A DNA stretch of 39,702 nucleotides, taken from the IMG/VR virus record IMGVR_UViG_3300021438_000032, positions 1 to 39,702 of that record, one strand, 5' to 3'. The notes under the pieces are model-generated. The model was not told the DNA's origin, did not search any database, and saw only the letters and a list, made by a program, of their open reading frames with translations. Numbering within the stretch: position 1 is the stretch's first letter; every line of letters starts with the position of its first letter. This DNA is from a virus. Below are positions 595 through 39,702 of this stretch, in pieces. A program made the position numbers and the translations under genes.

Positions 595-972
595 ATGAAA
601 ACCAATACAAAAGCCAAAGTTACAGCTTGCCTACTAACCATGATGGCGCCAACCATTGCGTCTCATGCGGCAGAGGGCATTCAAATGACTGATTGGTCAA
701 CAATTCGCGACACAACAGTCAAGAATGGCGAGAAACCAAGCCCAAAGGTGGTCAGTACTAGCTCACTCGGTAAGAAGATAGTCTGTCGAACTGGAGACTT
801 ACAAGCTGAGTCACTCGCTGACCTACTCAGACAGTTGGGCTATTCTCAAACAGAAGTCTGGGGTAAGACCAACAAACTCGAATGGGCGTGGCATCGCATC
901 AACAACGCCAAATTCAAACGAGGAGAACCTGTGGAATTTGAAGGACGAGTCTTCATCAAAAATTCGATTTAA
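595..972 (+). CDS. Putative exported protein with a C-terminal domain shared with the 300-aa protein
   Basis: This 125-aa protein has a convincing Sec signal peptide: basic N-terminus (K2, K6, K8), hydrophobic core at about 10-22 and an AxA-like site near SHA-AEG (24-28). It is therefore predicted to reach the periplasm. Residues 61-122 form a small domain whose core AW.RI..AKFK.GE..EFEG..F (98-120) matches residues 251-273 of the cytoplasmic protein encoded at 5951-6853. I do not recognise the domain by name. Helices followed by a short beta hairpin suggest a small DNA- or protein-binding fold. The start is set by AGAGGA seven bases upstream of ATG 595. Its last codons form the left block of repeat element A. 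A role at the envelope, such as superinfection exclusion, is speculation. Confidence 0.75.
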   Translation: MKTNTKAKVTACLLTMMAPTIASHAAEGIQMTDWSTIRDTTVKNGEKPSPKVVSTSSLGKKIVCRTGDLQAESLADLLRQLGYSQTEVWGKTNKLEWAWHRINNAKFKRGEPVEFEGRVFIKNSI

Positions 973-1047
973 GAATGATTCGATTCAATCGATATAATCT
1001 ATCGATTGAATCATTTTCATTGAAAATAGGTTATATAGAGTTCGATA
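965..1047. repeat. Dispersed intergenic element, copy A
   Basis: Architecture is CGATTTAAG, 40 nt, TTTTCATT, 14 nt, TAGAGTTCGAT. The left block supplies the stop codon of the 125-aa gene. The arm at 993-1001 can pair with 1029-1037 (one G-T), next to the right block. It is the same element as at 10830, 19291 and 23914. Confidence 0.85.
982..1012 (+). terminator. 13-bp hairpin downstream of the exported-protein gene
   Basis: The arms 982-994 and 1000-1012 are perfectly complementary with a 5-nt loop, ten bases after the stop at 972, and are followed by ATTTTCATT. It is plausible as an intrinsic terminator, but it lies inside repeat element A and may instead be part of that element. Confidence 0.5.
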
Positions 1048-1065
1048 AATCATATCATTTGAATC

Positions 1066-1100
1066 ATTCTTATAGATTCTGAATCAGAATCTATAAGAAT
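1066..1100. repeat. 16-bp perfect inverted repeat
   Basis: The arms 1066-1081 and 1085-1100 are perfectly complementary around a 3-nt centre and contain GATTC/GAATC. A second, 7-bp inverted repeat follows at 1099-1115. Both sit just upstream of the ribosome site for the gene at 1141, so they could control its transcription or translation. Confidence 0.65.
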
Positions 1101-1140
1101 GGTTATGGTAACCATTAAATCAACAATAGAGGATAAAATC

Positions 1141-1395
1141 ATGAGTATGTATGTTATAATAGAATTCAAACCAGTGGATAACCAAGAGCTGGCTGACGTC
1201 CTAATGATAAACTACAGAAGTATGGACTTCATACATTTGGAGGACGATGTTCTTAACTGCGCATTTGAATTATGTGACAACCAAGAGTTGGATGCCTTAG
1301 TGACTCCGCACTGGCAATTCATTAGAGAACATGAGCTACCACACGATGGCTCTGACCGAGCAAGTTACTTGTACGAGCAATACGGAGTATACTGA
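1141..1395 (+). CDS. Small acidic protein, diverged paralogue of the next gene
   Basis: This is an 84-aa protein of unknown function. I chose ATG 1141 because it has the same leader as the 595 gene (AGAGGA, then TAAAATC, then ATG). An upstream in-frame ATG at 1099 lies inside a hairpin and has no ribosome site. The N-terminal strand (YVIIEF), a central L.D.VL block and a C-terminal DGS...L...YG motif all recur in the next gene, which suggests tandem duplication. It has no membrane segment or signal peptide. As a small early gene without homologues I recognise, a host-takeover role is possible but unproven. Confidence 0.7.
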   Translation: MSMYVIIEFKPVDNQELADVLMINYRSMDFIHLEDDVLNCAFELCDNQELDALVTPHWQFIREHELPHDGSDRASYLYEQYGVY

Positions 1396-1401
1396 GTTCG
1401 T

Positions 1402-1429
1402 AATAGGCTCTTACCAAAAAGAGTCTATT
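1402..1429 (+). promoter_or_regulatory. Hairpin between the two paralogues
   Basis: The arms 1402-1412 and 1419-1429 form 11 bp with one G-T pair and a 6-nt loop, placed between the stop at 1395 and the ribosome site at 1455. It may separate or tune expression of the two genes. Confidence 0.45.
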
Positions 1430-1466
1430 GCGGGCGATGTTGCCCCAATCATATAGGAGAACAATC

Positions 1467-1745
1467 ATGACCACTTACAAACTGTCAATTCCACTTCACA
1501 TGAATATGGACTACGTCCGTCTAATCATGTCTAAGTTTGATGAAACCAAATCTGTCAACTTAACAGATAAAGTGTTGGAAGTCGAAATTTTCGCTGACGA
1601 GCATCCTAACTCCCTATGTTCCCAGTTAGACCAACTGTGGTGCAGCAAGTCACCAGATGGTTCAGTAGGATTTGTTGACTTCCTGCAGACGTTTGGCGCA
1701 GTTGAGCCAAATCCTTTTGGTCGCGGCGATGAAGGTGAACCCTAG
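1467..1745 (+). CDS. Small acidic protein, diverged paralogue of the previous gene
   Basis: This is a 92-aa protein of unknown function. ATG 1467 is supported by AGGAGA seven bases upstream. An upstream in-frame TTG at 1428 lies in a hairpin and is less likely. It aligns with the 1141 product through the N-terminal Y..S/I strand, the L.DKVLEVEIF block and the C-terminal PDGS...FL..FGA block. The last 15 residues are Pro, Gly and acidic. A perfect hairpin lies 15 bases after the stop. Confidence 0.7.
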   Translation: MTTYKLSIPLHMNMDYVRLIMSKFDETKSVNLTDKVLEVEIFADEHPNSLCSQLDQLWCSKSPDGSVGFVDFLQTFGAVEPNPFGRGDEGEP

Positions 1746-1760
1746 CATCCAGACACAGCT

Positions 1761-1801
1761 TAACCTCAGAATTATCGCTTTTCTTTGCAATTCTGAGGTT
1801 A
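1761..1801 (+). terminator. 13-bp perfect hairpin closing the left plus-strand genes
   Basis: The arms 1761-1773 and 1789-1801 are perfectly complementary with a 15-nt loop rich in T. It lies between the last left plus-strand gene and the opposing gene at 2058-2387, as expected for a terminator. There is no T run directly after it. Confidence 0.55.
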
Positions 1802-2057
1802 GTGTCCCGTTCCCGCCTTTCAACTCAATGGGGGGAATCGTTCGTGATTACGGCTAAACCGGTTGCACGCATGTCTGCTCATCACAGCACAATAAAACTA
1901 TAAGTTGGGGACACATCAGCAGAAAGTTGCAGTTGGTAGACCGTTGGGCATGTCATGTCGCGTGGTGCATGTGGTGGCCAACTAACATTCTTTCTGACTG
2001 TGTGACTATTTTATAATATTTAGGCCGGTCTGTCAAGAGATATTTTCTCTTTATAAA
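1802..2057. other. Gene-free stretch with a possible folded RNA
   Basis: I see no credible gene here. Nested pairings 1911-1915/1999-2003, 1920-1926/1990-1996 and 1931-1936/1978-1983 enclose 1937-1977, giving an imperfect hairpin of about 93 nt. A TATAAT at 2012-2017 has no good -35 partner. No T-loop or other tRNA signature is present. It could be a small RNA, a leader or a packaging signal. Confidence 0.35.
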
Positions 2058-2062
2058 TCAAT
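2039..2062. repeat. Direct repeat flanking the TerS-like gene, left
   Basis: The sequence GATATTTTCTC..TATAAATCAAT matches 2462-2482 apart from three missing bases. It overlaps the end of the TerS-like gene. Confidence 0.5.
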
Positions 2063-2387
2063 CACTTGTAGTAACCATATCAATTATTAAGCGAGAGCTG
2101 TCGGACTGACCAGACTTCACTTCGACAGCTCTTACGTCTGGGACTACCTTGCGCAGTAGACCAGCTAAGATTTCATGCTTCAGTTTAATTGCTTGTATAG
2201 CAGGTACCTGCTGCTCTACTTTCAATTCAAGTGCGGCATCGACCTCGTCTACCAATGAGTAGATTTGCTTTACCAAAGATTCTGCGTCGATTCTCTCGCG
2301 AATTTCCTCTGCTTTTAAGGCAGCATTTACTTTCTTCTCGGCCAAGATTTGTTTGCGTGCCATGGCAACTATTTCATGCTCTAACAT
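2058..2387 (-). CDS. Putative small terminase subunit
   Basis: This 109-aa protein is mostly helical. Its C-terminal half has the pattern common in short phage TerS-like proteins: a run of Lys/Ala helices, then LLRKVVPDVRAVEV and a polar tail. I infer the DNA-recognition subunit of packaging, partner of TerL at 37166-38632. Support is family resemblance only; no helix-turn-helix is obvious. ATG at 2387 has GAGG seven bases upstream. On the circle it lies upstream of TerL on the same strand, separated by about 2.4 kb that carries opposing plus-strand genes, an unusual split. Near-identical 21-24 bp direct repeats flank it (2039-2062 and 2462-2482). It could instead be another small DNA-binding protein. 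Confidence 0.5.
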   Translation of the reverse strand: MLEHEIVAMARKQILAEKKVNAALKAEEIRERIDAESLVKQIYSLVDEVDAALELKVEQQVPAIQAIKLKHEILAGLLRKVVPDVRAVEVKSGQSDSSRLIIDMVTTSD

Positions 2388-2412
2388 TTTTTACCTCATT
2401 TTTGGTATTTTT

Positions 2413-2730
2413 TTGGTTCTTGAGATACTTTATTCTATCATAAGAACCTGTTTTTTTTTTCGATATTCTCTTATAAATCAATACCTTAGATGATTAGAGA
2501 ACCAGAACCAATTCAATCTGGCTCGGTGATATATATTTTTTTATCAATATTTTTCTTCTATTCTCTATTTATATCTGGTTCTTTTGGTTCTTTGGTTCTT
2601 ATAATAAAATTAATCAATAAAATCAATAACTTATAACAAGAACCGAAGAACCTTTGGTAACCAAATCTTTTGGTTCTTGGTCAAAAATCATTGGTTCTTC
2701 GGTTCTTTTTGGTTATCATAATTGGTTCTT
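2413..2730. repeat. GGTTCTT iteron array, candidate replication origin or control region
   Basis: The 7-mer GGTTCTT occurs eight times forward (2415, 2577, 2586, 2594, 2672, 2693, 2701, 2724) and three times inverted as AAGAACC (2442, 2638, 2646). Near matches are at 2497 and 2503. The common extended form is TTGGTTCTT. A palindrome TTTGGT-A-ACCAAA sits at 2653-2665. The array is embedded in very AT-rich DNA between the divergent TerS-like and primase genes, as in iteron-type origins. The binding protein is unknown. An operator array controlling both directions is the main alternative. Confidence 0.7.
2462..2482. repeat. Direct repeat flanking the TerS-like gene, right
   Basis: GATATTCTCTTATAAATCAAT is the right partner of 2039-2062 and lies within the iteron region. 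The pair may mark insertion or duplication of the gene between them, or may be two binding sites. Confidence 0.5.
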
Positions 2731-2731
2731 G

Positions 2732-2782
2732 TATAAAAATCAATGAGATAGATAATTTTAAAAAAAAAGATTGATTTTTATA
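2732..2782. repeat. 13-bp inverted repeat before the primase promoter
   Basis: The arms 2732-2744 and 2770-2782 are perfectly complementary, with a 25-nt spacer that includes a run of A. The right arm overlaps the -35 box of the promoter at 2771, so a dimeric regulator or structure here could control primase expression. Confidence 0.55.
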
Positions 2783-2799
2783 TCTGAATGATTTATAAT
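2771..2799 (+). promoter_or_regulatory. Sigma-70-like promoter for the replication block
   Basis: TTGATT (2771-2776), a 17-bp spacer and TATAAT (2794-2799) give a near-consensus promoter pointing at the primase gene, about 145 bp upstream of its ATG. The same -35, -10 and flanking bases recur at 12543-12570. The leader 2805-2943 has no gene that I can support. Confidence 0.65.
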
Positions 2800-2943
2800 G
2801 AATATGAAAATTAGATGTTACCTGTTGCCAAAGGATTGGACTACTGTGAACTAACCAATCACCGCCCCATGTCATATTGGTGACCTCTGGGGCAATGTAG
2901 TTACTACCACTCGTGGTGAGTGGCTGATGACAAGAGGTAATAT

Positions 2944-5106
2944 ATGAACGCAGTAATTGATTTTGAGCAAATAACAGAAGTAGTAGGCAGTAAATGCTTC
3001 AATCAATTTGGTATTCCAGTAGAGTTGAAACAGTTAGACCGTTGGGTATGTTGGTCTTTGGTTAAAACAACAAAAAGTAAAGGAGATAAACCACAAAAAC
3101 GACCTGTGGCACCAGCATATCGTAGCGATTTTGGTATTCGTGTAGCTAAATGGGCTGCACCTGAGCACCAAATGTCCTTTGAGGACGCGTACGAGCTGTA
3201 TGAAGACAACGAAAATATACATGGTTTAGGCTTTATTCCTAGCCAAAATGATGAAATAGTAGTAATAGACTATGACCGTTGCCTAACTTCAAGCAATGAA
3301 GTTATACTTGGTGACAAACGAGCCAAGCACATTCAAAGCTTATGCACTGAAACTTTCGTTGAGTCGTCTGTATCTGGTAAAGGTTTGCACATATTTCTCA
3401 AAGGAAAGTTACCAACTGGGCGTAAGAATCTTGGTTCCACTGTGGGTGTAGAGCTATATCCTGGCAATAAGCCAGCATTTATAGCTATGACTGGTGCCGT
3501 ATTTGCTGATTCCCCTTTGGCACTATCTGATGGTACAGCGACAATAGCCGAGCACTTACAGGAATTCTTTGGTGAAACAGGGCAAGCAAACAACAAACCA
3601 GCATATTCCATACCAGACTCTCTTGGTGAGGGCAATAGAAACTCTGGTATGACGCAAATTTGTGGTTGGTTATATAGCCAAGGATGGCAAAAGAGTGACA
3701 TATTGTCTTATATGCTAAAATACAATGAGTTTAAAGTTGTACCGCCACTGCCAGAGAGTGAGGTATTGTCCATACATAAATCCATATCTAAAGCTCAAGA
3801 GGATAAGGATGCTATAAAAGAGCAAGAGCTTCAGACGTATTTAAACGACATATACCACATACGCACACATGCCATGTGGTTTGACTTCAAAGGGCATGTG
3901 TTGGTATCGGCAGACTCGTTGAACACAACATATTATAACAAAGGGTTCAGAGGTAAAAAAGACTCTTTGCCTCTTATAGCTAATTGGTTGAAGGCACAAG
4001 CTAACTTTAAATCAGCAGAGAACGTATCTTGGTTGCCTGTACCGTACGGAACTGAGCAACGTTTAATAAGGTCAGACAACGGCTCGTCTATGGTAAACAC
4101 ATGGAGAGGGTTTGCTGTAGAGCCAAAGGAGGGAGATGTACAACCTTGGTTAGACCATTTGCAGCACGTTGTGCCAGAGTCTGACTATCGTTCGGCACTA
4201 CTGTGGTGGATAGCTTATACGATTCAGCGTCCTAATAAGAAGGTATCGTGGCAGCCAATAATTCTTGGTATATCTGGTGCTGGTAAAGACGCTCTATTCA
4301 CTCCAATACATGACATACTTGGTCGTGCGTACAAGACAATTGGTAATAAGGATATTAAAGGTGACTACGACGATGGGTTGTGGCAGACCAAACTGCTTCA
4401 TATATCAGAAGCATCTGGTTTAAAAGGCAACGCAATTGACTTCTATAAGCGAATTACAGCACCTGAGAGTGACTCGATGATGCTTTTGAACATTAAGGGA
4501 CAGAAGAAGGTAGAGCAGCCTAACATTTGTAACGTATTGGTTATCACTAATAACGTTGATGCTATGAAGTTTGATATAACTGAGCGCAGAGCGTTCATAC
4601 TTAATGCACCAACTGTTATGTCAGAAGAGCAAACATACAAATATTACGAGGGATGGCTGCACGTTGGCGGTGCAAAGGCATTGTTTCATTACTTACTAAA
4701 CTACCCTTTAACAGAACATACGCCAACCAAACTGCCATTCTTAACAACTCACTTCTATGAGATGTTCGACATGACTAGAGACAAAGAGGAGTCTAGCATT
4801 AAATATGACTGGGAAGACTCTAAGGGGCTGTTCAAGTACGATTTTGTACAGTTCAGAACGTTATCGGCGCACTACCCAGACCTGTCAAAGGCTAAACTAA
4901 AGCAAGCGCTTGAGCTATTTGGGTTTGTTAAGGTTGACAGTATAGTAACAAAGGCACAAAAAACTATTGACGGAAAAAAAGATTACGCTGAAAGAGACTG
5001 GTGGGTGCTAAAAACGCACCCTTGCCTTAAGTCAGTAGAGTATTATGAAGCTATACTAGCTGTAAAGGAACTAGTGGCAAAAGAGCAAATTAACAGAAAA
5101 TTTTAA
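2944..5106 (+). CDS. Primase-polymerase/helicase replication protein (NrS-1-like architecture)
   Basis: This 720-aa protein combines priming and unwinding for phage replication. The N-terminal archaeo-eukaryotic-type primase part (about 25-205) shows the metal-binding pair D109/D111 in VIDYD, the S.SGKGLHIF motif (142-151) and E170 in VELY. Residues 229-283 match a PriCT linker (GEGNRN..., PPL..SE..SIHKS). The C-terminal part is an SF3/DUF5906-type helicase with Walker A G442-x2-G-x-GKD449, and later motifs ISEASGL and VLVITNN. This order is known from the phage NrS-1 primase-polymerase. ATG 2944 has AGAGGT eight bases upstream. It follows the iteron array, which fits origin-proximal expression. 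The next gene starts 38 bp downstream. Confidence 0.85.
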   Translation: MNAVIDFEQITEVVGSKCFNQFGIPVELKQLDRWVCWSLVKTTKSKGDKPQKRPVAPAYRSDFGIRVAKWAAPEHQMSFEDAYELYEDNENIHGLGFIPSQNDEIVVIDYDRCLTSSNEVILGDKRAKHIQSLCTETFVESSVSGKGLHIFLKGKLPTGRKNLGSTVGVELYPGNKPAFIAMTGAVFADSPLALSDGTATIAEHLQEFFGETGQANNKPAYSIPDSLGEGNRNSGMTQICGWLYSQGWQKSDILSYMLKYNEFKVVPPLPESEVLSIHKSISKAQEDKDAIKEQELQTYLNDIYHIRTHAMWFDFKGHVLVSADSLNTTYYNKGFRGKKDSLPLIANWLKAQANFKSAENVSWLPVPYGTEQRLIRSDNGSSMVNTWRGFAVEPKEGDVQPWLDHLQHVVPESDYRSALLWWIAYTIQRPNKKVSWQPIILGISGAGKDALFTPIHDILGRAYKTIGNKDIKGDYDDGLWQTKLLHISEASGLKGNAIDFYKRITAPESDSMMLLNIKGQKKVEQPNICNVLVITNNVDAMKFDITERRAFILNAPTVMSEEQTYKYYEGWLHVGGAKALFHYLLNYPLTEHTPTKLPFLTTHFYEMFDMTRDKEESSIKYDWEDSKGLFKYDFVQFRTLSAHYPDLSKAKLKQALELFGFVKVDSIVTKAQKTIDGKKDYAERDWWVLKTHPCLKSVEYYEAILAVKELVAKEQINRKF

Positions 5107-5111
5107 TTGAG

Positions 5112-5123
5112 TCCGCATGCGGA
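5112..5123. repeat. 12-bp perfect palindrome
   Basis: TCCGCATGCGGA lies in the short gap between the replication protein and the HNH-like gene. It is strikingly GC-rich for this region. It may be an operator or a small transcript hairpin. Confidence 0.45.
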
Positions 5124-5144
5124 GAACACTTTTAGGAAAACAAA

Positions 5145-5660
5145 ATGATTGAAGAGCATAGAATGCCCAGGCTGCCAGAGGCAGAACGATTGGCAGCAAA
5201 ACAGGCTGGTAGAACACAAGGCAAGCCAAGAGACTACTCAAAATGTAGTCTAACACAAGAAAAATTGCATTCATTGGTGCACTACGACCAAGATACTGGT
5301 ATTTTTACCAAGCTATCTAACGGTATGCGATACCTAGCCACTGACAATGGTGGATATGTTCGTGTATCACTTGGTAAGTACGGTGTGTTTCAAGCGCATA
5401 TACTTGCTTGGTTTTACGTCACTGGTGAGTGGCCAGATGGTATCATTAAGAAACGTGACAGCGACCCAGGCAATAACGCATTTACCAATTTGGTGTATAT
5501 AAGCAAAGACTCACGCGTGTTCTATGGTTTCGACATCAAGCCATCTGGTGTGTTTATTAAAACACGAGTTGGTGACAATCCGATTGAGCTAATTGGTCCA
5601 TTCGAGAGTGTTGAGGTGGCTAAAACAGCAAGACAGGAACTAAGGAACGTGCAGCTATGA
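5145..5660 (+). CDS. HNH-endonuclease-like protein with a degenerate active site
   Basis: This 171-aa protein keeps the layout of free-standing phage HNH endonucleases: YDQDTGIFT strand (46-54), GGYVRVSLGKYGVFQAHILAWFYVTGEWPDG core and a NNAFTNL block. The usual general-base region, I/V-D-H-x-D before N-N, reads IKKRDSDPGNN here, so the catalytic His is replaced. It probably cannot cut DNA by the standard mechanism and may survive as a DNA-binding or structural protein, or as a decaying homing endonuclease. The ribosome site AGGA is eight bases upstream of ATG 5145. It overlaps the next gene by 4 bp. Confidence 0.7.
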   Translation: MIEEHRMPRLPEAERLAAKQAGRTQGKPRDYSKCSLTQEKLHSLVHYDQDTGIFTKLSNGMRYLATDNGGYVRVSLGKYGVFQAHILAWFYVTGEWPDGIIKKRDSDPGNNAFTNLVYISKDSRVFYGFDIKPSGVFIKTRVGDNPIELIGPFESVEVAKTARQELRNVQL

Positions 5661-5863
5661 GAAAATCAATAGGACATAGTGAATTATCTTTGGCGCTTGC
5701 CTTGTATACAGTAGGGCTTACGCTACGGGCGCTACCTGCTGAAGTAACAAGAACGTTTGTGCGTGTCCTTAAGGACGATGAAAAAGCTATTGACAAGGCA
5801 AAAGCTAAAAGACTAAGAAGACTAACTCGTAACCAAGAGATTTTAAAAAATCAGAATAAATAA
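5657..5863 (+). CDS. Small basic protein, unknown
   Basis: This 68-aa product starts at an ATGA overlap with the HNH-like gene. Residues 8-27 are moderately hydrophobic (LSLALALYTVGLTLRAL), and the C-terminal half is highly basic helix (KAKAKRLRRLTRNQEILKNQNK). It could bind nucleic acid or sit at a membrane. I recognise no family. Confidence 0.6.
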   Translation: MRKSIGHSELSLALALYTVGLTLRALPAEVTRTFVRVLKDDEKAIDKAKAKRLRRLTRNQEILKNQNK

Positions 5864-5864
5864 A

Positions 5865-5893
5865 TAGACAAAATCATTTTTATATAATAATAT
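5865..5893 (+). promoter_or_regulatory. Sigma-70-like promoter before the 300-aa gene
   Basis: TAGACA (5865-5870), a 17-bp spacer and TAATAT (5888-5893) form a plausible promoter about 58 bp upstream of the next ATG. A small hairpin with ATCATTT/AAATGAT arms follows in the leader (about 5900-5922). AGGAGG precedes the start codon, the strongest ribosome site in this part. Confidence 0.5.
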
Positions 5894-5950
5894 ATGCCCA
5901 TCATTTGAGATTATTAAATGATATTTTAATCAACTTAATAGGAGGCCGTC

Positions 5951-6853
5951 ATGGCTAGAGCAAAAAGAGATTCACAAGAAGTATCTGACAACGAAGAGTT
6001 TTTTGGAGAAGGCCAGTCAACTGCTTTTGAACAATCCGACGTAGAAACTGAAGCTACACAAGAGCTGGCACAAACAGAAGAAGCCGCACTTACACAGGCG
6101 TTAGCACAAGAAGATGTGGTTACTGCACTGACTGAGCTAAAAGAAACAGCCACAGGCAAATTGCCTGCATTCATTGCAACGTATATCGCATTGAAAAATG
6201 CACTTGGCGATGAGTCACCAGCCACACAAAATGCACTTGCCAATCTGCAGACGTATAAAACTGACGTTGTTAAGCCTACAAAAGAACATAAAGCCAAGGC
6301 ATTCAACGAAAAAACTGTATTGGCAGCAGCGTTGAAAGACACGGTTGGTTCTGTTGAAGGCCAGGACGTTATTGAAAAATCTTGGCAGGAAAAACTTAAA
6401 GATTTGCAATCCGACGAACGTATTAGCGAAAAGCTTAAGGCACTGCTGGTAACTTACCATACATTGGCTTCAATAGAAGACGAGTCGTTGGCGCCTTCTG
6501 TTGAATTGGCGCTGACACAACTTCGTGCATACGCATCAAAAAGCAAATCGTTGGCTAACAAAACCTCAACACGTATTGGTCAGCCATCTGTTCGCCTGAG
6601 AACCAAAGTGGTTACCAAAGATGGTAAAACGTTTGTGGCGGCAACACTTGCTGCAGCAATTAGACTGCTTGGTAATGAAGACAAAGAGTTTGTTTTAAAA
6701 GCCTGGAAACAAATCGGTACTGCCAAATTTAAAGCTGGTGAAACCATTGAGTTCGAAGGTCATAAATTCAGCTTGACTGACGAAGATACGTCTGGTGAGC
6801 CCGAAAAGCAAATCGAAGGCGTTGACGAATCGACCTTGCAAGAATTAGCATAG
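5951..6853 (+). CDS. Acidic repeat protein with a C-terminal domain shared with the exported protein
   Basis: This 300-aa protein has three parts. Residues 1-55 are strongly acidic and disordered-looking. Residues about 70-102 and 161-194 are an internal duplication sharing KL.A...TY..L......ES.A....AL..L..Y. Residues 219-276 are a small domain whose core AWKQIGTAKFKAGETIEFEG matches residues 98-117 of the signal-peptide protein at 595-972. No signal peptide is present, so this version stays in the cytoplasm. I do not recognise a named family. With AGGAGG before the start and its own promoter it is likely abundant. Its place just before the Cys-rich protein and the DNA polymerase suggests a replication or nucleic-acid role, by context only. 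Confidence 0.8.
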   Translation: MARAKRDSQEVSDNEEFFGEGQSTAFEQSDVETEATQELAQTEEAALTQALAQEDVVTALTELKETATGKLPAFIATYIALKNALGDESPATQNALANLQTYKTDVVKPTKEHKAKAFNEKTVLAAALKDTVGSVEGQDVIEKSWQEKLKDLQSDERISEKLKALLVTYHTLASIEDESLAPSVELALTQLRAYASKSKSLANKTSTRIGQPSVRLRTKVVTKDGKTFVAATLAAAIRLLGNEDKEFVLKAWKQIGTAKFKAGETIEFEGHKFSLTDEDTSGEPEKQIEGVDESTLQELA

Positions 6854-6906: not shown

Positions 6907-7692
6907 ATGAGCGAGCAAGAAATTCAAACAATGCCAGAGCTTCCTCCAGAAGTACAAGCTTTAATGGAAGCAGCGGCACAAAAAATAGCCAGTGAAGAAA
7001 ACAATGGTATACCTTTCATTAGCCTTAAAGGTAAAAAATTCTCCATAGGCGACGAAAAGGTTGGTTACAAAGACGAAAAACTTGGCTTAGCAATTCGTTG
7101 CGTTATTGTTGCAACAGCCTTTGATTTCACTTGGTACGACCGTCCTTACGACCCTTCAAGTGAAGACTTTAATCCACCTGCGTGCTTCGCGATTGGCGAT
7201 GAACAGGATGGCTTAACTCCACACGAAGACTCACCAATTCCACAGTGCCACAGCTGCATGGTCTGTCCAATGAATCAGTTCAAGTCAGCAGCAAATGGCA
7301 AAGGTAAAGCCTGCCGCAACGGTAGACGATTGCTTATTGCATACGTTAATGATGATGGTAGTGCAGACCTTGACAACTTGGCTATAGTCAGTCTATCACC
7401 TACAGCACTTCGCGGTTTCTCGTCTTACCTTAAAAAAGTAAGCGAGGTCAAAGGCTTGCCAGTTTGGTCTGTTGTTACAATACTGTCATTCGAGCAAGAA
7501 CAAGCGTATCCGCAAGTTGTTGCAACATTTGACGGGATACTAGCACATAACATGGCTGGCCAAACATCTTTGATTGAAATTAGTAAACGCCTAGACGAGT
7601 TCCAAAGTAGTGTATCAACTCCGTATGATTGCTCAACCTTTGTGGCGTACGAACCAAAAGTACCTAGCGAAAAGAAAAGTAAGATGTCATAG
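6907..7692 (+). CDS. Conserved phage Cys-cluster protein, possible ssDNA-binding protein
   Basis: This 261-aa cytoplasmic protein resembles a family of phage proteins found next to DNA polymerase genes. Visible hallmarks are a WYDRPYDP motif (77-83), PPACFAIG with C93, and a probable zinc site in PQCHSCMVCP (C114, C117, C120) plus C136 in GKGKACRNGRRL. The C-terminal third looks like beta strands and ends in a Ser/Lys tail. By position (between replication protein and polymerase) and beta-rich character I suggest single-stranded DNA binding, but I see no diagnostic motif. The 53-bp gap before it carries a hairpin, and a double hairpin follows it. Confidence 0.6.
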   Translation: MSEQEIQTMPELPPEVQALMEAAAQKIASEENNGIPFISLKGKKFSIGDEKVGYKDEKLGLAIRCVIVATAFDFTWYDRPYDPSSEDFNPPACFAIGDEQDGLTPHEDSPIPQCHSCMVCPMNQFKSAANGKGKACRNGRRLLIAYVNDDGSADLDNLAIVSLSPTALRGFSSYLKKVSEVKGLPVWSVVTILSFEQEQAYPQVVATFDGILAHNMAGQTSLIEISKRLDEFQSSVSTPYDCSTFVAYEPKVPSEKKSKMS

Positions 7693-12863: not shown

Positions 12864-12945
12864 GCCTGTTGTGCTAGTACCAGAACACACACTAAACTTC
12901 GGTGATTGTTTAGATGTGACATTTCAACTAAAGAAACAAAGGTAA
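12829..12945 (+). CDS. Possible 38-aa protein overlapping its neighbour
   Basis: ATG 12829 lies 35 bp inside the previous gene and the frame ends six bases before the deoxyribosyltransferase start. The product has an ordered-looking composition (AIKLSAAGKPVVLVPE). The ribosome site is weak (AGAAG). It fills a gap otherwise empty of genes in a very compact genome, which is the main support. Confidence 0.4.
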   Translation: MNKAIKLSAAGKPVVLVPEHTLNFGDCLDVTFQLKKQR

Positions 12946-12950
12946 AGAAA

Positions 12951-13400
12951 ATGAGCGAAGAAAGAAGTCATGAGTGTTACTTGGCAGGTCCATGGTTCAC
13001 TGATGCTCAAATGGCAAGACTTGAGCGAGTTAAGTCAATTTTGGCAGGACAAGGTATTACGTACTTTAGCCCAAAAGACGAAAACTTATTTAAGCCAGGC
13101 ATGACAACCAAAGATGTGCTTAACGCCAATTTGATAGCTATGGATGAATCACAGTTTGTTTTAGCTATTACAGATGGTAAAGACGTTGGCACAATGTTTG
13201 AGTGCGGTTGGGCTCATGCAAAAGACATTCCAATACTATACGTTTGGCTAACACGAGAGTATGGACAAAAGTTCAACCTTATGTTGGCAGCATCTGGTGC
13301 GTTTGTTACAACAGAGCATGAGCTAAAAATGGCACTTGTAAACTGGTTAAAGTATGCTAAGTTTGAAAGTACTGAGGTGCATGATGACCTCATTGAATGA
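12951..13400 (+). CDS. Nucleoside 2-deoxyribosyltransferase family protein
   Basis: This 149-aa enzyme-like protein shows the PF05014-type fold: YLAGPWF (10-16), conserved acidic residues D65 and D75/D78, and the G80-T-x2-E84-x-G-W motif in which the Glu is the catalytic nucleophile. It would exchange or hydrolyse bases on deoxynucleosides or deoxynucleotides for salvage. Start ATG 12951 has AAAGG upstream; an upstream TTG would add 15 unlikely residues. It overlaps the HD-domain gene by 17 bp. Confidence 0.8.
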   Translation: MSEERSHECYLAGPWFTDAQMARLERVKSILAGQGITYFSPKDENLFKPGMTTKDVLNANLIAMDESQFVLAITDGKDVGTMFECGWAHAKDIPILYVWLTREYGQKFNLMLAASGAFVTTEHELKMALVNWLKYAKFESTEVHDDLIE

Positions 13401-13896
13401 GTTTTTGGCTCAGATTTACAACTTGGCTTTTATACATCGTTACAGTGTTATACCAAGAGTTAAAAATGAGTCGATTGCTGAACATTCTTTTTTTGTTGCA
13501 TCTTTGGTTATTAAGTTACAAGATGACTATGTGTTTGACTTAGGTAAAGCTGTTACAATGGCAACAATACACGACTGGACAGAGAGTTGGACTGATGATA
13601 TAACTGTAGCAACCAAAAGAAAATTTCCTTTGATTGCTAATGCTGTAGAGGTTGTAGAGTACCAAGTGGTTAATCAATTCTTTCCTATTGGCGTAAAAAA
13701 CATTTGGTCAGAGTATAAAGAAGGGCACTCTGTAGAAGCAAAGATTACTAAGTATGCTGACACCTTGCAAGTTATTCAGTATGCAGAAAATGAGGCTAAA
13801 CTTGGAAACATGTATATGGAGTCTGTAGTAGAAGACGCCAAACAAAGACTTTTAAAATTGGAGGATGCGCTAAATGAGTACAGAAGAGTTGCTTAA
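13384..13896 (+). CDS. HD-domain 5'-deoxynucleotidase (YfbR-like)
   Basis: This 170-aa metal-dependent phosphohydrolase matches the YfbR-type pattern: R..NESIAEHS (H34), TIHDWTESWTDDI (H63-D64, D71/D72) and KYADTLQ (D126). It likely converts dNMPs to nucleosides or otherwise trims the nucleotide pool. ATG 13384 sits six bases after GAGG; an adjacent ATG at 13381 is possible. It is embedded in the nucleotide-metabolism cluster and overlaps both neighbours. Confidence 0.85.
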   Translation: MTSLNEFLAQIYNLAFIHRYSVIPRVKNESIAEHSFFVASLVIKLQDDYVFDLGKAVTMATIHDWTESWTDDITVATKRKFPLIANAVEVVEYQVVNQFFPIGVKNIWSEYKEGHSVEAKITKYADTLQVIQYAENEAKLGNMYMESVVEDAKQRLLKLEDALNEYRRVA

Positions 13897-14575
13897 TAAA
13901 GGAAAAACAGAGCGAATGGTTGTTAGACCAATCATTCAGACGTTAATTGATGTTTACGCACTAAAAGGACCTGAAGGCTTTGGTGTGTTGTTTGAAGGCT
14001 TTAACTTACCAAGATGGTTACCTTTTAAAGGTAAGTTTGTTGGCAAAATGGGGTTTGGCCAATCAGAAGAGCGAATGTATAACATCCAACAATTTGCTAA
14101 AGCTGCTATGAAGCACGGTGACAGAGCGGCAGAGTTTGGTGTATACACAGGCTACACAACTCGGATGTTATTGGACATGGGGTTTGATGTTCTTGCGTTC
14201 GACTCGTTCGAAGGCATTAAAGGCTCTGGTGAGCACGATATAATGCAAGACGGTGAGTTTAGTGTTGACAGCATGCTTGAAGAAACGTTTGAGCGAATTA
14301 AAGATGCGTACGTAGTAGTTGGTACGTTGCCAGGCACGTTAGAAGGCCGTGATGATATGTTTAACTTTGTTCACTTAGACCTTGATGTGTACGAGCCAAC
14401 ACTGGCTGTTCTACGGTACGTATACCCAAGAATGCACACTGGTGGAGTTATTGTGCTAGACGACTACGGTTACCACATAACACCTGGCATTAAAAAAGCT
14501 GTAGATGAGTTTGTTGCAGAATCTGGCGCTAAGTTCATTTACTTAACATCCGGACAAGGAGTTATATTAGTATGA
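13874..14575 (+). CDS. TylF/macrocin-O-methyltransferase-like SAM enzyme
   Basis: This 233-aa protein has the TylF-type class I methyltransferase layout: SAM-binding AEFGVYTGYTT (86-96), FDSFEG (109-114), HLDLDVYEPT (167-176) and GGVIVLDDYG (190-199), the Asp residues matching the metal site of TylF/MycF enzymes. These usually methylate sugar hydroxyls. Here the target is unknown: a phage or host glycan, or a modified nucleotide given the neighbours. GGAGG precedes ATG 13874. It overlaps by 23 bp upstream and 4 bp downstream. Confidence 0.8.
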   Translation: MSTEELLNKGKTERMVVRPIIQTLIDVYALKGPEGFGVLFEGFNLPRWLPFKGKFVGKMGFGQSEERMYNIQQFAKAAMKHGDRAAEFGVYTGYTTRMLLDMGFDVLAFDSFEGIKGSGEHDIMQDGEFSVDSMLEETFERIKDAYVVVGTLPGTLEGRDDMFNFVHLDLDVYEPTLAVLRYVYPRMHTGGVIVLDDYGYHITPGIKKAVDEFVAESGAKFIYLTSGQGVILV

Positions 14576-14841
14576 GTGTAGAAGAAACATTGGAGCAACG
14601 TGGCTCCATTTATGGCGACTACGAAGAAGGCACTAAAACACGTGGATGGATAATGGAGACTTTACGTGAGCACAAAAGAAGGTGCTCTGGTTCTGGTTTT
14701 ACGCCTGCGGAAGAAGTTATGATTACAGACTTGGTTAACAAGCTTGTAAGATTTGCAGGTTCACCAACACACATAGACAGCATACATGATTTGGCTGGCT
14801 ATGCAACTTTAATTGAAAGGACATTAACATGCCAAAAGTAA
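14572..14841 (+). CDS. DUF6378-like small phage protein
   Basis: This 89-aa protein has the typical pattern of a short phage family: R-G-x-x-Y-G-D-Y (11-18), a central helix, and ITDLVNKLVRFAGSPTHIDSIHDLAGYATLIER. It is helical and may be distantly related to MazG-type nucleotide-binding helices, though I see no full catalytic set. It is wedged between the methyltransferase and ThyX with 4- and 13-bp overlaps, consistent with a nucleotide-related role. Confidence 0.65.
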   Translation: MSVEETLEQRGSIYGDYEEGTKTRGWIMETLREHKRRCSGSGFTPAEEVMITDLVNKLVRFAGSPTHIDSIHDLAGYATLIERTLTCQK

Positions 14842-15707
14842 TAAGAACAGACATTGAGCCATTCTACTGTGAAAAGAAGTTTGGCAAACCAGCTAATCTA
14901 TCAATGGTAGAGCAACTGTCAAGTATTAAAGTTGAGTTGATTAACCCAACAGATTTGGAGGAAGCAGTTAACACTATGTGCCAATTTTCTATGAACGGTT
15001 GGAACACAGAGCCAAGAACTGAGTTTACTAAGGAAGATGTGGAAAAATGCTTGTCTGAATTGTTTGCTGGAACAGCACTTCCATTGGCGTTAGAAACATT
15101 TAGAGTAAACTTCAGCGTATCAGGACTTGATTTAGTTGACGTGACACACTTGATTAGACACCGTGCGTTTACGTTCTCAGCACAATGCTCAGACCGCGAC
15201 CTTCGTGACTTGGAGCTGGTTGTTAAGCCATCAATACTTGCCAACGAGGAGTTTAGAGAACGGTTTGAGTTCCTTGCGTACCACTCAGCACAGCTTTATG
15301 CCGACATGCTTGACTCTGGTGAAGTCAATGTGTTTGATGCTAGAACTATTTTGCCAGTAAACAAATCTCACTACTACCTGGTGTCTGGTTGTTTAAAAGA
15401 CATAATTAACTATATCAAACAACGCATTGACGAGCACATTCAAACACAATCTGACAACGTTGTTGCGCTGTTGCTATGGACTGAATTGTGCAAAGTGTAC
15501 CCGTTCTTAAAACCATTGATTGACCTAAATGGTAAAGATACGTACCACATTAACCAAGTCAAGGCTGGAAAAACAACTATATTCCCACCATCAGAAAAGA
15601 ACGATGTGATGGATTGGGACAAAGACCAGTTCTTTCACGATAAGCACCGTGACCAGTTTCCTGGCAGTAATGTGTACTTAGGTATAAAAGAACGTTTGAC
15701 TAAGTAG
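14829..15707 (+). CDS. thyX: Flavin-dependent thymidylate synthase (ThyX)
   Basis: This 292-aa protein likely makes dTMP from dUMP with FAD and methylenetetrahydrofolate. The ThyX signature is R110-H-R112 followed by FTFSAQCSDRDL, but the conserved Ser lies eight residues after RHR (S121) instead of seven, with Cys at 120. The upstream helix LVDVTHLIRHR is typical. It works with dCMP deaminase and the dUTPase-like enzyme downstream to supply dTMP. GAAAGGA precedes ATG 14829. A related activity on dUMP (for example a modified thymine precursor) cannot be excluded given the altered spacing. Confidence 0.85.
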   Translation: MPKVIRTDIEPFYCEKKFGKPANLSMVEQLSSIKVELINPTDLEEAVNTMCQFSMNGWNTEPRTEFTKEDVEKCLSELFAGTALPLALETFRVNFSVSGLDLVDVTHLIRHRAFTFSAQCSDRDLRDLELVVKPSILANEEFRERFEFLAYHSAQLYADMLDSGEVNVFDARTILPVNKSHYYLVSGCLKDIINYIKQRIDEHIQTQSDNVVALLLWTELCKVYPFLKPLIDLNGKDTYHINQVKAGKTTIFPPSEKNDVMDWDKDQFFHDKHRDQFPGSNVYLGIKERLTK

Positions 15708-15715
15708 TTAGCGTG

Positions 15716-15738
15716 AGTGGTGTGTAACAGGCACCACT
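15716..15738 (+). promoter_or_regulatory. Hairpin pair in the ThyX-dUTPase gap
   Basis: The arms 15716-15722 and 15732-15738 (AGTGGTG/CACCACT) form one stem. A second, AGTAAC/GTTACT, follows at about 15742-15760 just before GAGGAG. They may act as an attenuator or as stabilising structures. Confidence 0.4.
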
Positions 15739-15778
15739 TGCAGTAACTATTTTGGTTACTAACAACCGAGGAGCTGTT

Positions 15779-16171
15779 ATGAACGAAATACTAAATAAAC
15801 AACTGCAACTACTTAACATAGTTGCCCAAAATACAACCGATTTGCACCCATGCTTTATGCCGGAACAGCCGACAAAAGGAGACATTATAAAGTATATTAA
15901 GGAACATTCGTTCTTTATGAACCAAGAGGTTGTTGAGTTAATGCAACAGATTGGACATGGCAGTACAGTGTTAAAACCATGGAAACAGTCACATTTGGCT
16001 GTATGCCAAGAAGAAGCTATCATTGATGATGAAGTTAAATCAGAAGCTATAGATATGTTATGTTTTTGCTTAAACATTTGTCTGGCTGCTGGTATAACAC
16101 CAGAAAATATAGAAGTTGAATACGACAAAGTTTGGCTCAAAAACATTAGCAGACAACAAAATGGCTATTAA
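15779..16171 (+). CDS. All-alpha NTP pyrophosphatase, dUTPase/MazG-like
   Basis: This 130-aa protein has the metal-binding helices of the all-alpha NTP pyrophosphatases: E50-x2-E53 (NQEVVEL), E89-x2-D92 (KSEAIDML) and a C-terminal YDKVWLKNISRQQNGY block resembling dimeric dUTPases. It probably hydrolyses dUTP or dCTP to the monophosphate, feeding ThyX and lowering uracil in DNA. ATG 15779 is five bases after GAGGAG. It is followed by the dCMP deaminase gene. Confidence 0.75.
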   Translation: MNEILNKQLQLLNIVAQNTTDLHPCFMPEQPTKGDIIKYIKEHSFFMNQEVVELMQQIGHGSTVLKPWKQSHLAVCQEEAIIDDEVKSEAIDMLCFCLNICLAAGITPENIEVEYDKVWLKNISRQQNGY

Positions 16172-16198
16172 ACGTGAACTACACCCATTTGGAGAACT

Positions 16199-16636
16199 AT
16201 GATGGCTATTCGCCCCTCAAAAATGATGACGTTCACCAGACTCGCAGAAGATATTGCTGAACAGTCGACGTGTAAACGAAGACAGGTTGGATGCTTCTTG
16301 GTTGATGCAAACCACCATGTACTGTCTGTTGGTTATAACGGTGTTGCAAAGGGTATGAAACATTGCTTAGATGAGCCATGCTCTGGCTCAGAGTGTAAGT
16401 CTGGTGAAGGCTTAGATTTATGTTTGGCTATACATGCAGAGCAAAATGCTTTAATTCGATGCAAAGAACCAAATGTGATTCACACCTGCTACACCAATGT
16501 GGCGCCTTGCATGCATTGTTTAAAAATGCTTCTAAACACAAGCTGCCAAAGAGTTGTGTTCTTGCATAACTATGCTGATAGCGTACGATGTAAAGAGCTT
16601 TGGGAAAGTGCTAATAGACAATGGGTGCAGTTATGA
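16199..16636 (+). CDS. dCMP deaminase
   Basis: This 145-aa zinc enzyme converts dCMP to dUMP for ThyX. The cytidine/dCMP deaminase signature is HAE (79-81, proton shuttle E81) and PC104-x2-C107. The insert C56...C61...C66 may form the second zinc site seen in dCMP deaminases. GGAG lies just before ATG 16199; an adjacent ATG at 16202 is equally possible. It ends in an ATGA overlap with a membrane-protein gene. Confidence 0.9.
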   Translation: MMAIRPSKMMTFTRLAEDIAEQSTCKRRQVGCFLVDANHHVLSVGYNGVAKGMKHCLDEPCSGSECKSGEGLDLCLAIHAEQNALIRCKEPNVIHTCYTNVAPCMHCLKMLLNTSCQRVVFLHNYADSVRCKELWESANRQWVQL

Positions 16637-36480: not shown

Positions 36481-36750
36481 TTAGCCTTCCTTATTAATTG
36501 ACGAATCAGCTGTAAAGCCAGTCATAAATGCTATAGTTAAAGATTGCTCATCTAAACCAATAATTGCTTGCGTTTGGTACAGAGTAATTAATGTAGTAAC
36601 CAGTGTAAACAGCATAGCACCTGTATGTTTAGGCGCTTCTACCATGTATAAAATAAAGTTAGCACTAACCTCTTCTCTTAGCCAGCATTTTAACCAATGG
36701 AAAAACACACCAGTTAATGATACAGCAAATACTATTAATACCTGACTCAT
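36481..36750 (-). CDS. Holin candidate
   Basis: This 89-aa membrane protein has two clear spans (about 3-20, VLIVFAVSLTGVFFHWL; about 42-63, HTGAMLFTLVTTLITLYQTQA) and a possible third weakly hydrophobic one (LTIAFMTGF). Size, topology and the ATGA coupling to the endolysin gene fit a holin that permeabilises the inner membrane for lysis. A spanin is not recognised nearby. Confidence 0.75.
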   Translation of the reverse strand: MSQVLIVFAVSLTGVFFHWLKCWLREEVSANFILYMVEAPKHTGAMLFTLVTTLITLYQTQAIIGLDEQSLTIAFMTGFTADSSINKEG

Positions 36751-37166
36751 GCTATGCTCCGTAATTGGAAATGCATGCCGTCGGGTGTAGACCAGTGCCC
36801 TCCCCAGTCAAACCCTGCGTCAGTAAAGCAGTTAACCAGCTCGTCAGACATAAATGGCTGCTTACCAAACGGATTCCAGGCTGCGTTAATATCTATTGCT
36901 ACGCCCCATGAGTGTAACGATGGCGTTAATGCACCTCTTTTCTGACGTATGTTAAAGCACCCGTCCCATGTCTTAATCTGATGCCCTATGTCTTTAGCAT
37001 AAATCTGCGTTAACGCACGGCGTAATGGCTCTACCAAATCTTTATTACAATAAATACGTGAAGGCAAAGAGCTGATGTATAGTTGTGGAGGCACTTGCCA
37101 CACAACCATGTTATGTTCTTTCTCAGGGTCCCCATACTTAGCTAAGCAGTCTTTAGACGTTAACAT
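36747..37166 (-). CDS. Endolysin, M15 (VanY-like) D-Ala-D-Ala peptidase
   Basis: This 139-aa lysis enzyme shows the M15 zinc site: SLHSWGVAIDIN (H85, D92) and DGMHF (H132), with GFDWGGHW (118-125) nearby. It would cleave peptide cross-links in murein after the holin acts. ATG 37166 overlaps the terminase stop (TGATG). The cassette sits between TerL and portal, and there is no signal peptide, so export depends on the holin. Confidence 0.9.
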   Translation of the reverse strand: MLTSKDCLAKYGDPEKEHNMVVWQVPPQLYISSLPSRIYCNKDLVEPLRRALTQIYAKDIGHQIKTWDGCFNIRQKRGALTPSLHSWGVAIDINAAWNPFGKQPFMSDELVNCFTDAGFDWGGHWSTPDGMHFQLRSIA

Positions 37167-38632
37167 CACATTATACCTGTTTTTGGTTGAACTAATTTCA
37201 TTTTACTCTTAGCAAATATTACGTCACCGCCAGTAGCACCAAGTGTTAAATACTGTAGAGCGTCTGACACATGGCTAAATTTGTTTTTGTCTGGAACGTC
37301 CTTAAACCGCTCTTCGCCAGACACTTGCATACGTTTGTAGGAGTACCCACCAGACAGTGCCTTCCTTAGCACAGGTGCACCAGGTGTTATACAGAATGCT
37401 ACTTTTCCACCAAGTGTTAGGCGAAGCATCAAGTCACCAACTGTATCTCTGCGAATAATAAAATCGTTTGTGTACACAGGATATGCTGCAACACCTTGTT
37501 CGTATAGCACCTCATAAGGGGTGGTCTCGTCTGTTTGCGCTCTTGTATCACCAGCAGGGTCACCATACACCTCAAAGTCAAACCCTTTGTATGATAGCAT
37601 CCTTGTCTTAAGCAGCCTACCAAAATTGATGGCTCCCATGTTGAACGTCACCAACTCGTCAAATATTACTAGCCTACCAGCAATTAATTGACCAAATACT
37701 GCGGCAGGTGTTAGCCCAAAGTCTAAACCAACATAGATGGTGTGCTCAGGTACTGGAGAGAAGTTCTCACCAATGAAATGCACGTCGTCGTTATATTCTG
37801 GCCAAACTGGTGTTCCATCCATTACAAAACCGTACCTACCATGAATGTATACGTCAATCCAGACTTTACGTTTACCAATTGTTAGATTTTCGTAGTAACC
37901 TGGTATTAAGTTCTTAACGTTCTCAGCCTCGGCGGATAAGCCAGATGGCTGTTTAAACAAAATGTGATTAGATGGACATGAAATGAACTCACCAGTGCTC
38001 TCATCCATGTGTCCCTCGAATAGGTTATGCCACCAATGGTCTTTGTCTGGAGGGTTTGTATCCATTATGACACCATGAAATGTTGCGTTCTGATGTATGT
38101 CTACTGCTGGATACCTACCACATCTACCTTGTACAGCCTCTACCACAGATAAAGGTAACTCTCTTGCCTCATTTACCCATGCGGCTGTTATCTCTAGGCT
38201 TAATAACTTAGAGATGTCATCTGGTTTGTCCAATGCACGAAACATGAATTCGGCCATTAAGTGCGTACCATCTGGTAAATCTTGCTTTAACGTGAACGTC
38301 ATAGTTAAGTTAGAGAAGTGACCGGTACTTTTGTCTATCCAGTCGAAAAACGTTTTTAACGTAGTATCTAATAACTCTCTATACGTATTGCGTATTATCG
38401 CGAACCTTGTACGCCTTATGGGCCTTTCTGTCGAATTTGGCACCAAATACACACCATCATCAATTATATAACCTCTATCAGGCTCTTGTTGGTAAGCTAT
38501 CATTAATAGCTCTAACACACAAGTGACTGATTTACCAGAGCCAAAAGGACCCATGATGCCACGCACGAAATAATTACGTGCACCATGAAATTTGAGGCCT
38601 GTAGGAGAAGGTTTGTAGACTTTTGTTGGCAT
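37166..38632 (-). CDS. terL: Terminase large subunit
   Basis: This 488-aa DNA-packaging motor has an N-terminal ATPase with Walker A GPFGSGKS (28-35) and a Walker B/catalytic region AAWVNEARE (E156). The C-terminal RNase-H-like nuclease carries D304 (YVGLDFG), D358 (VYGDPAGD) and D457 (FSHVSDALQYL). It is the first gene of the late block, 20 bp downstream of a strong promoter; AAAGG lies just before the ATG at 38632. The small subunit is not adjacent; the best candidate is at 2058-2387. Confidence 0.95.
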   Translation of the reverse strand: MPTKVYKPSPTGLKFHGARNYFVRGIMGPFGSGKSVTCVLELLMIAYQQEPDRGYIIDDGVYLVPNSTERPIRRTRFAIIRNTYRELLDTTLKTFFDWIDKSTGHFSNLTMTFTLKQDLPDGTHLMAEFMFRALDKPDDISKLLSLEITAAWVNEARELPLSVVEAVQGRCGRYPAVDIHQNATFHGVIMDTNPPDKDHWWHNLFEGHMDESTGEFISCPSNHILFKQPSGLSAEAENVKNLIPGYYENLTIGKRKVWIDVYIHGRYGFVMDGTPVWPEYNDDVHFIGENFSPVPEHTIYVGLDFGLTPAAVFGQLIAGRLVIFDELVTFNMGAINFGRLLKTRMLSYKGFDFEVYGDPAGDTRAQTDETTPYEVLYEQGVAAYPVYTNDFIIRRDTVGDLMLRLTLGGKVAFCITPGAPVLRKALSGGYSYKRMQVSGEERFKDVPDKNKFSHVSDALQYLTLGATGGDVIFAKSKMKLVQPKTGIM

Positions 38633-38712: not shown

Positions 38713-38960
38713 TTTGTATGCAAATGTCCTAAAACTTAAGTTCCTTAAAATCACTTACTACGATTTTTGTATGCAAATGGACTGAAACTTAAGTTCCTTA
38801 GAGTTAAATTTTTTAGTTTTGCTATTTAGCAATTTATTGCTAAGTTCAAAATGCTTGAGAGTACCTTATAGCTAAATTTCCAAAAGTCAAATGTCCTAAA
38901 AAAATTTTTTAAAATCACTTACTACGATTTTTGCTTGCTAAGTTCAAAATGCTTGAGAGT
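38713..38960. repeat. Interlocking direct repeats upstream of the late promoter
   Basis: Units 38713-38765 and 38766-38818 are a 53-bp imperfect tandem repeat (shared TTTGTATGCAAATG and AAACTTAAGTTCCTTA). Another exact 25-bp repeat is at 38745-38769 and 38909-38933, and an exact 26-bp repeat is at 38837-38862 and 38935-38960. CAAATGTCCTAAAA occurs at 38721 and 38888. No gene is present. The mosaic order suggests repeated local duplications at a protein-binding or packaging region. Confidence 0.85.
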
Positions 38961-39155
38961 TCAATCTACGACTCAGACTAGCCCGAAAATCCCCCCATCG
39001 ATTATATCAGATTTATCTATCGAATTATTAGATATTATTGATTAAATCAATCTAATCTTATCATTTGATTGAATCATGATTCTATGATTTAATATATCTC
39101 AATGAATCAAGAGATTGATTCATGAAATAAATGAAAATAAAGATTGATTTAATCA
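38961..39155. other. Gene-free AT-rich stretch with small inverted repeats
   Basis: After a short C-rich run (38989-38997) the composition shifts sharply to A/T with frequent GAATC, GATTC and ATTGAT. Inverted repeats include the 12-bp palindrome GAATCATGATTC (about 39072-39083) and ATGAATCAA/TTGATTCAT. I see no convincing gene. Confidence 0.6.
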
Positions 39156-39326
39156 TTGATTGATGATGAATTAATCGAGAATTTAAAGAATAGATTATCA
39201 TTAATTGAAGAAGATGATAATCGAATAGAAATTAATTCTTTGAATCAATCATTAGATAATGAATATCTAATGAGAATATATCTAAATAAATCGATTAAAA
39301 GATTAGATGAAAATTTAATTGATTAA
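39156..39326 (+). CDS. Possible short coiled-coil ORF or gene remnant
   Basis: This 56-codon open frame begins only with TTG (39156). A separate ATG frame at 39131 gives MKIKIDLIID and stops, in a frame one base away, so the two may be pieces of one broken gene. The product (LIDDELIENLKNRLSLIEE, in parts) is coiled-coil-like and resembles the 120-aa protein in composition more than in sequence. There is no good ribosome site. Confidence 0.25.
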   Translation: MIDDELIENLKNRLSLIEEDDNRIEINSLNQSLDNEYLMRIYLNKSIKRLDENLID

Positions 39327-39388
39327 TTCAGATAATGATGATAGATAATATTTGATTCTATCAGATAAGAATGAATGATTCATTCTTT

Positions 39389-39702
39389 GAAATCTCTTTA
39401 AAAATATAATAATGATTGAATCTTATATTCTATTATGATTAATTCAATTGATTCTATTCTCAGAATATCGAGAATAGAATCTCTTGATTATTAGAATATC
39501 ATCTTATTCTGAGATGATATTCTTTTAATCATCAAATGAGAAATCAAAATGAAGTATTCATCATATAAAAAATCGAAAGATTCTAAAGAATCAATTAATT
39601 CTGAAAGAAAAATTATTGAAAATAACCTATCATTCAGAAAATTAGATATATCATCATCAATTGATGATAAAATCAATAAATTGAATCGAGAATTGAGTCG
39701 AT
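39389..39702. repeat. Terminal direct repeat, right copy
   Basis: This is the same 314 bases as 1-314 with two substitutions. G at 39516 completes an 11-bp hairpin (39494-39504 with 39512-39522) that has a C-A mismatch in the left copy. C at 39626 is a synonymous third-codon change (Asn) in the 120-aa gene, which is cut off here by the end of the sequence. Confidence 0.9.
39549..39702 (+). CDS. Partial second copy of the 120-aa coiled-coil gene
   Basis: This is the first 51 codons of the gene at 161-523, repeated because the sequence wraps around, and cut at the end of the window. It carries one synonymous difference. It is not a separate gene if the molecule is circular. Confidence 0.8.
   Translation, partial: MKYSSYKKSKDSKESINSERKIIENNLSFRKLDISSSIDDKINKLNRELSR

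Follow-up and report, generated by a model that had tools for sequence, protein, structure and literature searches.

A predicted exported phage protein shares its C-terminal domain with a protein of the phage's own replication operon

We analyzed a window of 39,702 bases, the full length of the IMG/VR virus record IMGVR_UViG_3300021438_000032. Bases 1 to 314 are repeated at 39389 to 39702 with two mismatches, and the record is therefore probably a complete, or nearly complete, phage genome. The rightward arm encodes a primase/helicase, an HNH protein, the protein P0002, a cysteine-motif protein, DNA polymerase A, an exonuclease, a helicase, nucleotide-metabolism proteins, and a ligase, while the structural genes lie in the leftward arm. 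The portal protein had 43% identity with that of Cronobacter phage Ss1, and no relative of bases 1 to 25000 at the DNA level was found among 50,697 phage records. A gene adjoining the terminase gene encodes an M15-type peptidase (36747 to 37169; D-alanyl-D-alanine carboxypeptidase family; Pfam E value, 5e-16), which is likely the endolysin. A nucleotide cassette at 12906 to 16636 encodes a nucleoside deoxyribosyltransferase, a YfbR-like HD deoxynucleotidase (annotated by PHROG as dATP triphosphohydrolase), a TylF-like methyltransferase, a ThyX-like protein, and a dCMP deaminase. This cassette might serve DNA base modification; PurZ was absent among the family matches of the rightward arm, which came from a general family search. 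The genome closes in an AT-rich, palindrome-filled segment (38960 to 39702 and 1 to 594, with ∼24% GC in 1 to 594), and direct repeats occupy 38713 to 38960. From its sequence, the closure segment is a possible origin or packaging region. A small charged ORF (161 to 523) runs over the end overlap and has a sub-threshold Pfam match to KxDL (E value, 1e-4).

At the start of the rightward arm, an ORF at 595 to 972 encodes P0001, a protein of 125 amino acids that is predicted to be exported. P0001, P0002, and the features described with them are all on the + strand. The in-frame codon score of the ORF was the best of the six frames and lay 3.3 standard deviations (sd) above shuffles, and its GC content was 46%, compared to 24% in the upstream flank and 26% in the downstream flank. 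The ribosome-binding leader and start, AATAGAGGATAAAATCATG (579 to 597), occurs in the 39.7 kb only before ATG 595 and ATG 1141, and for this reason ATG 595 is well supported as the start codon. Based on the codon score, the GC content, and this leader, the N terminus of P0001, MKTNTKAKVTACLLTMMAPTIASHA followed by AEG, is very likely translated. The gene sits between a perfect 17-bp inverted repeat upstream (524 to 559) and two strong, terminator-like hairpins directly after its stop codon (982 to 1012 and 1062 to 1104; RNA fold z-score for 982 to 1104, −6.2), within the AT-rich segment around the point where the genome closes. Bounded in this way, the gene resembles an independently transcribed cassette, as far as its sequence features go. 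The small proteins encoded at 1141 and 1467 were tested for paralogy, and none was found.

The second protein, P0002 (5951 to 6853), is encoded in the replication operon and has 300 amino acids, with an acidic N terminus, a helical middle, and a C-terminal domain that also makes up the C-terminal half of P0001. This shared domain is about 60 residues long and covers residues 58 to 120 of P0001 (766 to 954) and residues 216 to 273 of P0002 (6596 to 6769). In a single BLASTP comparison, the two copies were 41% identical over 64 columns (E value, 4e-9). The earlier note had pointed to a motif common to both proteins and to weaker similarity ahead of it, and both observations held, the motif and its coordinates exactly. 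Residues 98 to 120 of P0001 (AWHRINNAKFKRGEPVEFEGRVF; 886 to 954) and residues 251 to 273 of P0002 (AWKQIGTAKFKAGETIEFEGHKF; 6701 to 6769) form the strongest part of the domain and are identical at 14 of 23 positions, and the alignment reaches back to residue 58 of P0001 and residue 216 of P0002 with one 6-residue gap. The conserved part is rich in charged residues (AKFK.GE..EFEG), and the net charge is +4 for mature P0001 as well as for the P0002 domain. The Smith-Waterman score of the two proteins was 89, which was reached by none of 2,000 shuffles (mean, 32; sd, 5; max, 60; Gumbel P value, ∼8e-7). Among the 51 non-overlapping ORFs in the window, P0001 and P0002 formed the only pair with an E value below 0.03 (3.9e-7), and when P0002 was compared with the entire record by tblastn, only the P0001 locus was matched besides P0002 itself (E value, 2.4e-5). 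These protein comparisons confirm the duplication. Because only ∼38 bases can still be aligned at the DNA level, the two copies are old, with each retained as a protein.

A Sec-type signal peptide is predicted at residues 1 to 25 of P0001 (595 to 669), consisting of MKTNTKAK, VTACLLTMMAPTIA, and SHA/AE, where the slash marks the cleavage site. By sequence, it has the parts of a type I signal: a positive n-region, an uncharged h-region (VTACLLTMMA), and an A-x-A-like site (SHA/AE). It is important to note that the test used was a crude filter for n-, h-, and c-regions with MalE and OmpA as controls and shuffles for comparison, and not SignalP. The filter passed MalE, OmpA, 2 of the 51 window ORFs (including 595 to 972), and 1 to 3% of shuffles; in two related phages, it passed 2 of 54 and 0 of 50 ORFs. 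The mean hydropathy of the hydrophobic stretch was 2.0, the same value as for MalE under the same rule, and the h-region was moderate and short (∼14 residues), with one proline. P0002 has no such N terminus. Thus, the earlier claim that only one of the two proteins carries a plausible Sec signal stood, and it is plausible from sequence that one version is exported while the other is kept inside. A 68-amino-acid ORF between the HNH gene and P0002 (5657 to 5863) also has a hydrophobic stretch and passes the crude filter.

The main rival to export is that the signal peptide works poorly or not at all and that P0001 remains in the cytoplasm as a stand-alone version of the P0002 domain, where it would compete with P0002 for a partner and modulate the replication operon protein. 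The charged conserved part suggests that an interaction surface was retained, and the equal net charge of the two copies and the moderate, proline-containing hydrophobic stretch are consistent with such a role. However, this reading requires the signal peptide to fail, even though all three of its regions are present at a MalE-like strength that few shuffles attain. Moreover, the start codon is well supported, and an N terminus of this kind would be needless for a cytoplasmic regulator. We therefore consider a cytoplasmic P0001 unlikely, although it deserves to be weighed.

The place of P0002 in the genome bears on where the domain came from. Its downstream neighbor is a 261-amino-acid protein with the cysteine motif C..C..N.F.S...GKGKAC (6907 to 7692), which marks conserved synteny. 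This neighbor matches the PHROG families phrog_27714 and phrog_23155, which are also found in phages of Stenotrophomonas, Pseudomonas, Acinetobacter, Rhizobium, and other hosts. In 27 records, phages that are otherwise unrelated carry the cysteine-motif family close to genes for DNA polymerase or helicase, and this placement points to a conserved replication-module gene. While the neighbor of P0002 is common to these phages and the window, we found in them neither a homologue of P0002 nor one of the shared domain. For instance, upstream of the cysteine-motif gene, Stenotrophomonas phage AXL_3 has a gene of another family, phrog_13900.

A scan of IMG/VR with the major head protein led to 46 related contigs, one of which carried an orthologue of P0002; scans with the polymerase and the primase returned one fragment and nothing, respectively. 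The orthologue, P0003, has 228 amino acids and is encoded by the relative phage G003 (37,467 bases), with E values of 7.8e-7 in the contig scan and 7e-11 by BLASTP. The gene order in G003 is that of the window, with primase, HNH, P0003, and a cysteine-motif gene whose product is 51% identical to the 261-amino-acid protein. P0002 and P0003 share the helical middle, where the match is strong, the site between the HNH and cysteine-motif genes, and a C-terminal AW..I..A.FK, which in P0003 belongs to a diverged copy of the domain. The helical middle (residues 42 to 204 of P0002; 6074 to 6562), which is also helical in a low-confidence structure model, is conserved in the orthologue and probably consists of a duplicated helical module (P0002 self-comparison P value, ∼0.002; repeat 1 of P0002 versus repeat 2 of P0003, ∼0.0007). 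On its own, the C-terminal copy in P0003 is weak, with P values of 0.16 against the P0002 domain and 0.003 against P0001 and an E value of 0.6 against a window-only profile; the match is convincing because it is collinear with P0002. A profile of the P0002 and P0003 C termini, built with P0001 left out, found P0001 with an E value of 4.9e-7 (best of 3,000 shuffles, 0.058), a score that leans on P0002. From these comparisons, the shared domain is most likely ancestral to the replication-operon protein, which makes P0001, in the best reading, a duplicate of this C-terminal domain with a signal peptide fused to it. Residues 1 to 56 of P0001 had no match in P0002 or P0003 (P values, 0.94 to 0.95), and thus the signal part appears to have been added.

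P0001 could instead have been acquired from another phage with a P0002-like protein. With hairpins on its borders and a GC content of 46% where the surrounding region has 24%, the gene is like a horizontally gained cassette, and P0001 and P0003 have in common AWH.IN and a longer loop, both of which are missing from P0002. Nevertheless, P0001 scored 89 against P0002 and only 38 against P0003, a large difference that suggests that it was copied within this phage's lineage, and no outside source was found in the phage records, viral contigs, and prokaryote genomes searched. We regard acquisition as quite unlikely. A P0001-like gene was not found in a second genome, which counts against export; the G003 contig starts just before the primase and may lack the equivalent region.

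Profile searches gave no significant match for P0001, P0002, or P0003 in Pfam, PHROGs, NCBIfam, PADLOC, or PDB sequences. Further, P0001, P0002, and their domains had no homologue in phage records, viral contigs, and prokaryote genomes, a result that is weak evidence of absence given that the pattern-based scans reach mainly close relatives. Matches to TPR designs in PDB sequences were rejected, as no single stretch was significant. Two weak matches in G023 were also set aside: one to residues 72 to 111 of P0002 (E value, 0.005) crosses a stop, and a second (E value, 0.003) covers 35 residues within a 723-amino-acid ORF. Two AlphaFold models had pLDDT values of 35.8 and 42.8, too poor to name or compare folds, because there are few relatives. 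In both models, a helix followed by a beta-hairpin falls on the shared motif, which at these pLDDT values is only a hint. A viral Foldseek search with one of the low-confidence models returned nothing below an E value of 0.001. Neither of the observations that the earlier note named as refuting, different folds and a nonfunctional signal peptide, turned up, although models of this quality give no verdict on the folds. With models of pLDDT 36 and 43 and no family matches, no fold or target could be assigned, and the earlier suggestion of a binding module with two targets was left unsupported.

P0001 might also be held in the inner membrane by an uncleaved N-terminal anchor and link the replication machinery to the membrane. 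The model for this is p16.7 of Bacillus phage phi29, a membrane-tethered replication protein whose domain is kept in the cytoplasm. Both proteins combine a hydrophobic N terminus with a domain possibly of DNA replication, which in P0001 is the domain of a replication-operon protein, and this is the layout of a membrane-tethered replication accessory. In contrast to p16.7, the charges of P0001 as read from its sequence (a positive n-region and E27 and D33 beyond the hydrophobic stretch) favor an N-in/C-out topology, which would place the domain in the periplasm. The good cleavage motif that follows the hydrophobic stretch also points outward, the h-region is short, and we find a membrane tether improbable. 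The idea that the similarity to P0002 is mere chance or low complexity, which the short region and its K/E-rich residues might suggest, can be dismissed given the 2,000 shuffles, the sole strong pair among 51 ORFs, and the support for homology from the profile that includes a third sequence.

The best explanation overall is that P0001 is a derived, exported, single-domain copy of the P0002 C-terminal domain, reused at the envelope; we give this reading a probability of roughly 0.5. P0002 would be cytoplasmic and, judging by its operon place between the primase/HNH genes and DNA polymerase, is probably a DNA replication accessory. A duplicate of its C-terminal domain would have become attached to a Sec signal peptide, giving P0001 as a gene of its own. 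Cleavage after SHA would then leave a periplasmic protein of ∼100 residues, whose domain fold may have been turned to a new target on the envelope side early in infection. We thus favor, with modest confidence, neofunctionalization of P0001 into an early envelope-acting protein. Its most likely use would be an early role at the host envelope, such as a superinfection block; this last step is a guess, drawn by analogy from other small exported proteins that phages make early. A role as a lysis regulator was dropped, since the M15 peptidase gene is distant from P0001, which belongs to the rightward arm. It is a long shot that the same fold works in replication within the cell and, in the periplasm, meets incoming phage DNA or an envelope component so as to exclude rival phages. 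The earlier note had also offered a decoy or competition system, which found no support: direct competition needs both proteins in one compartment, and separate compartments would therefore rule out a direct decoy.

To our knowledge, most small phage proteins that are exported to the periplasm are orphans, and it is uncommon for the origin of such a protein to be traceable. Here, sequence comparison gives P0001 an origin in the C-terminal domain of a protein from the phage's own replication operon. If export is true, acquisition of a signal peptide turned a cytoplasmic domain of this phage into an envelope protein, and a comparison of its two proteins could show what one fold binds on each side of the membrane.

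Among known systems, the superinfection-exclusion proteins T5 Llp and Cor are small phage proteins that are expressed early and act in the periplasm, and Llp provides a precedent for an early periplasmic phage protein (PMC9586334). P0001 would resemble them as a small phage protein with a predicted periplasmic location. Llp and Cor are lipoproteins, whereas the sole cysteine in the signal region of P0001, C12 (VTAC, residues 9 to 12), comes after the charged n-region and before the hydrophobic region, and not after the hydrophobic region as in a lipobox. A lipoprotein reading of P0001 was dropped for want of a usable lipobox. No sequence relation to Llp or Cor was found, and P0001 differs from both in having a paralogous domain in a replication-operon protein. 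P0001 is thus not a member of the Llp/Cor family, and the analogy with these proteins concerns the mode of action only.
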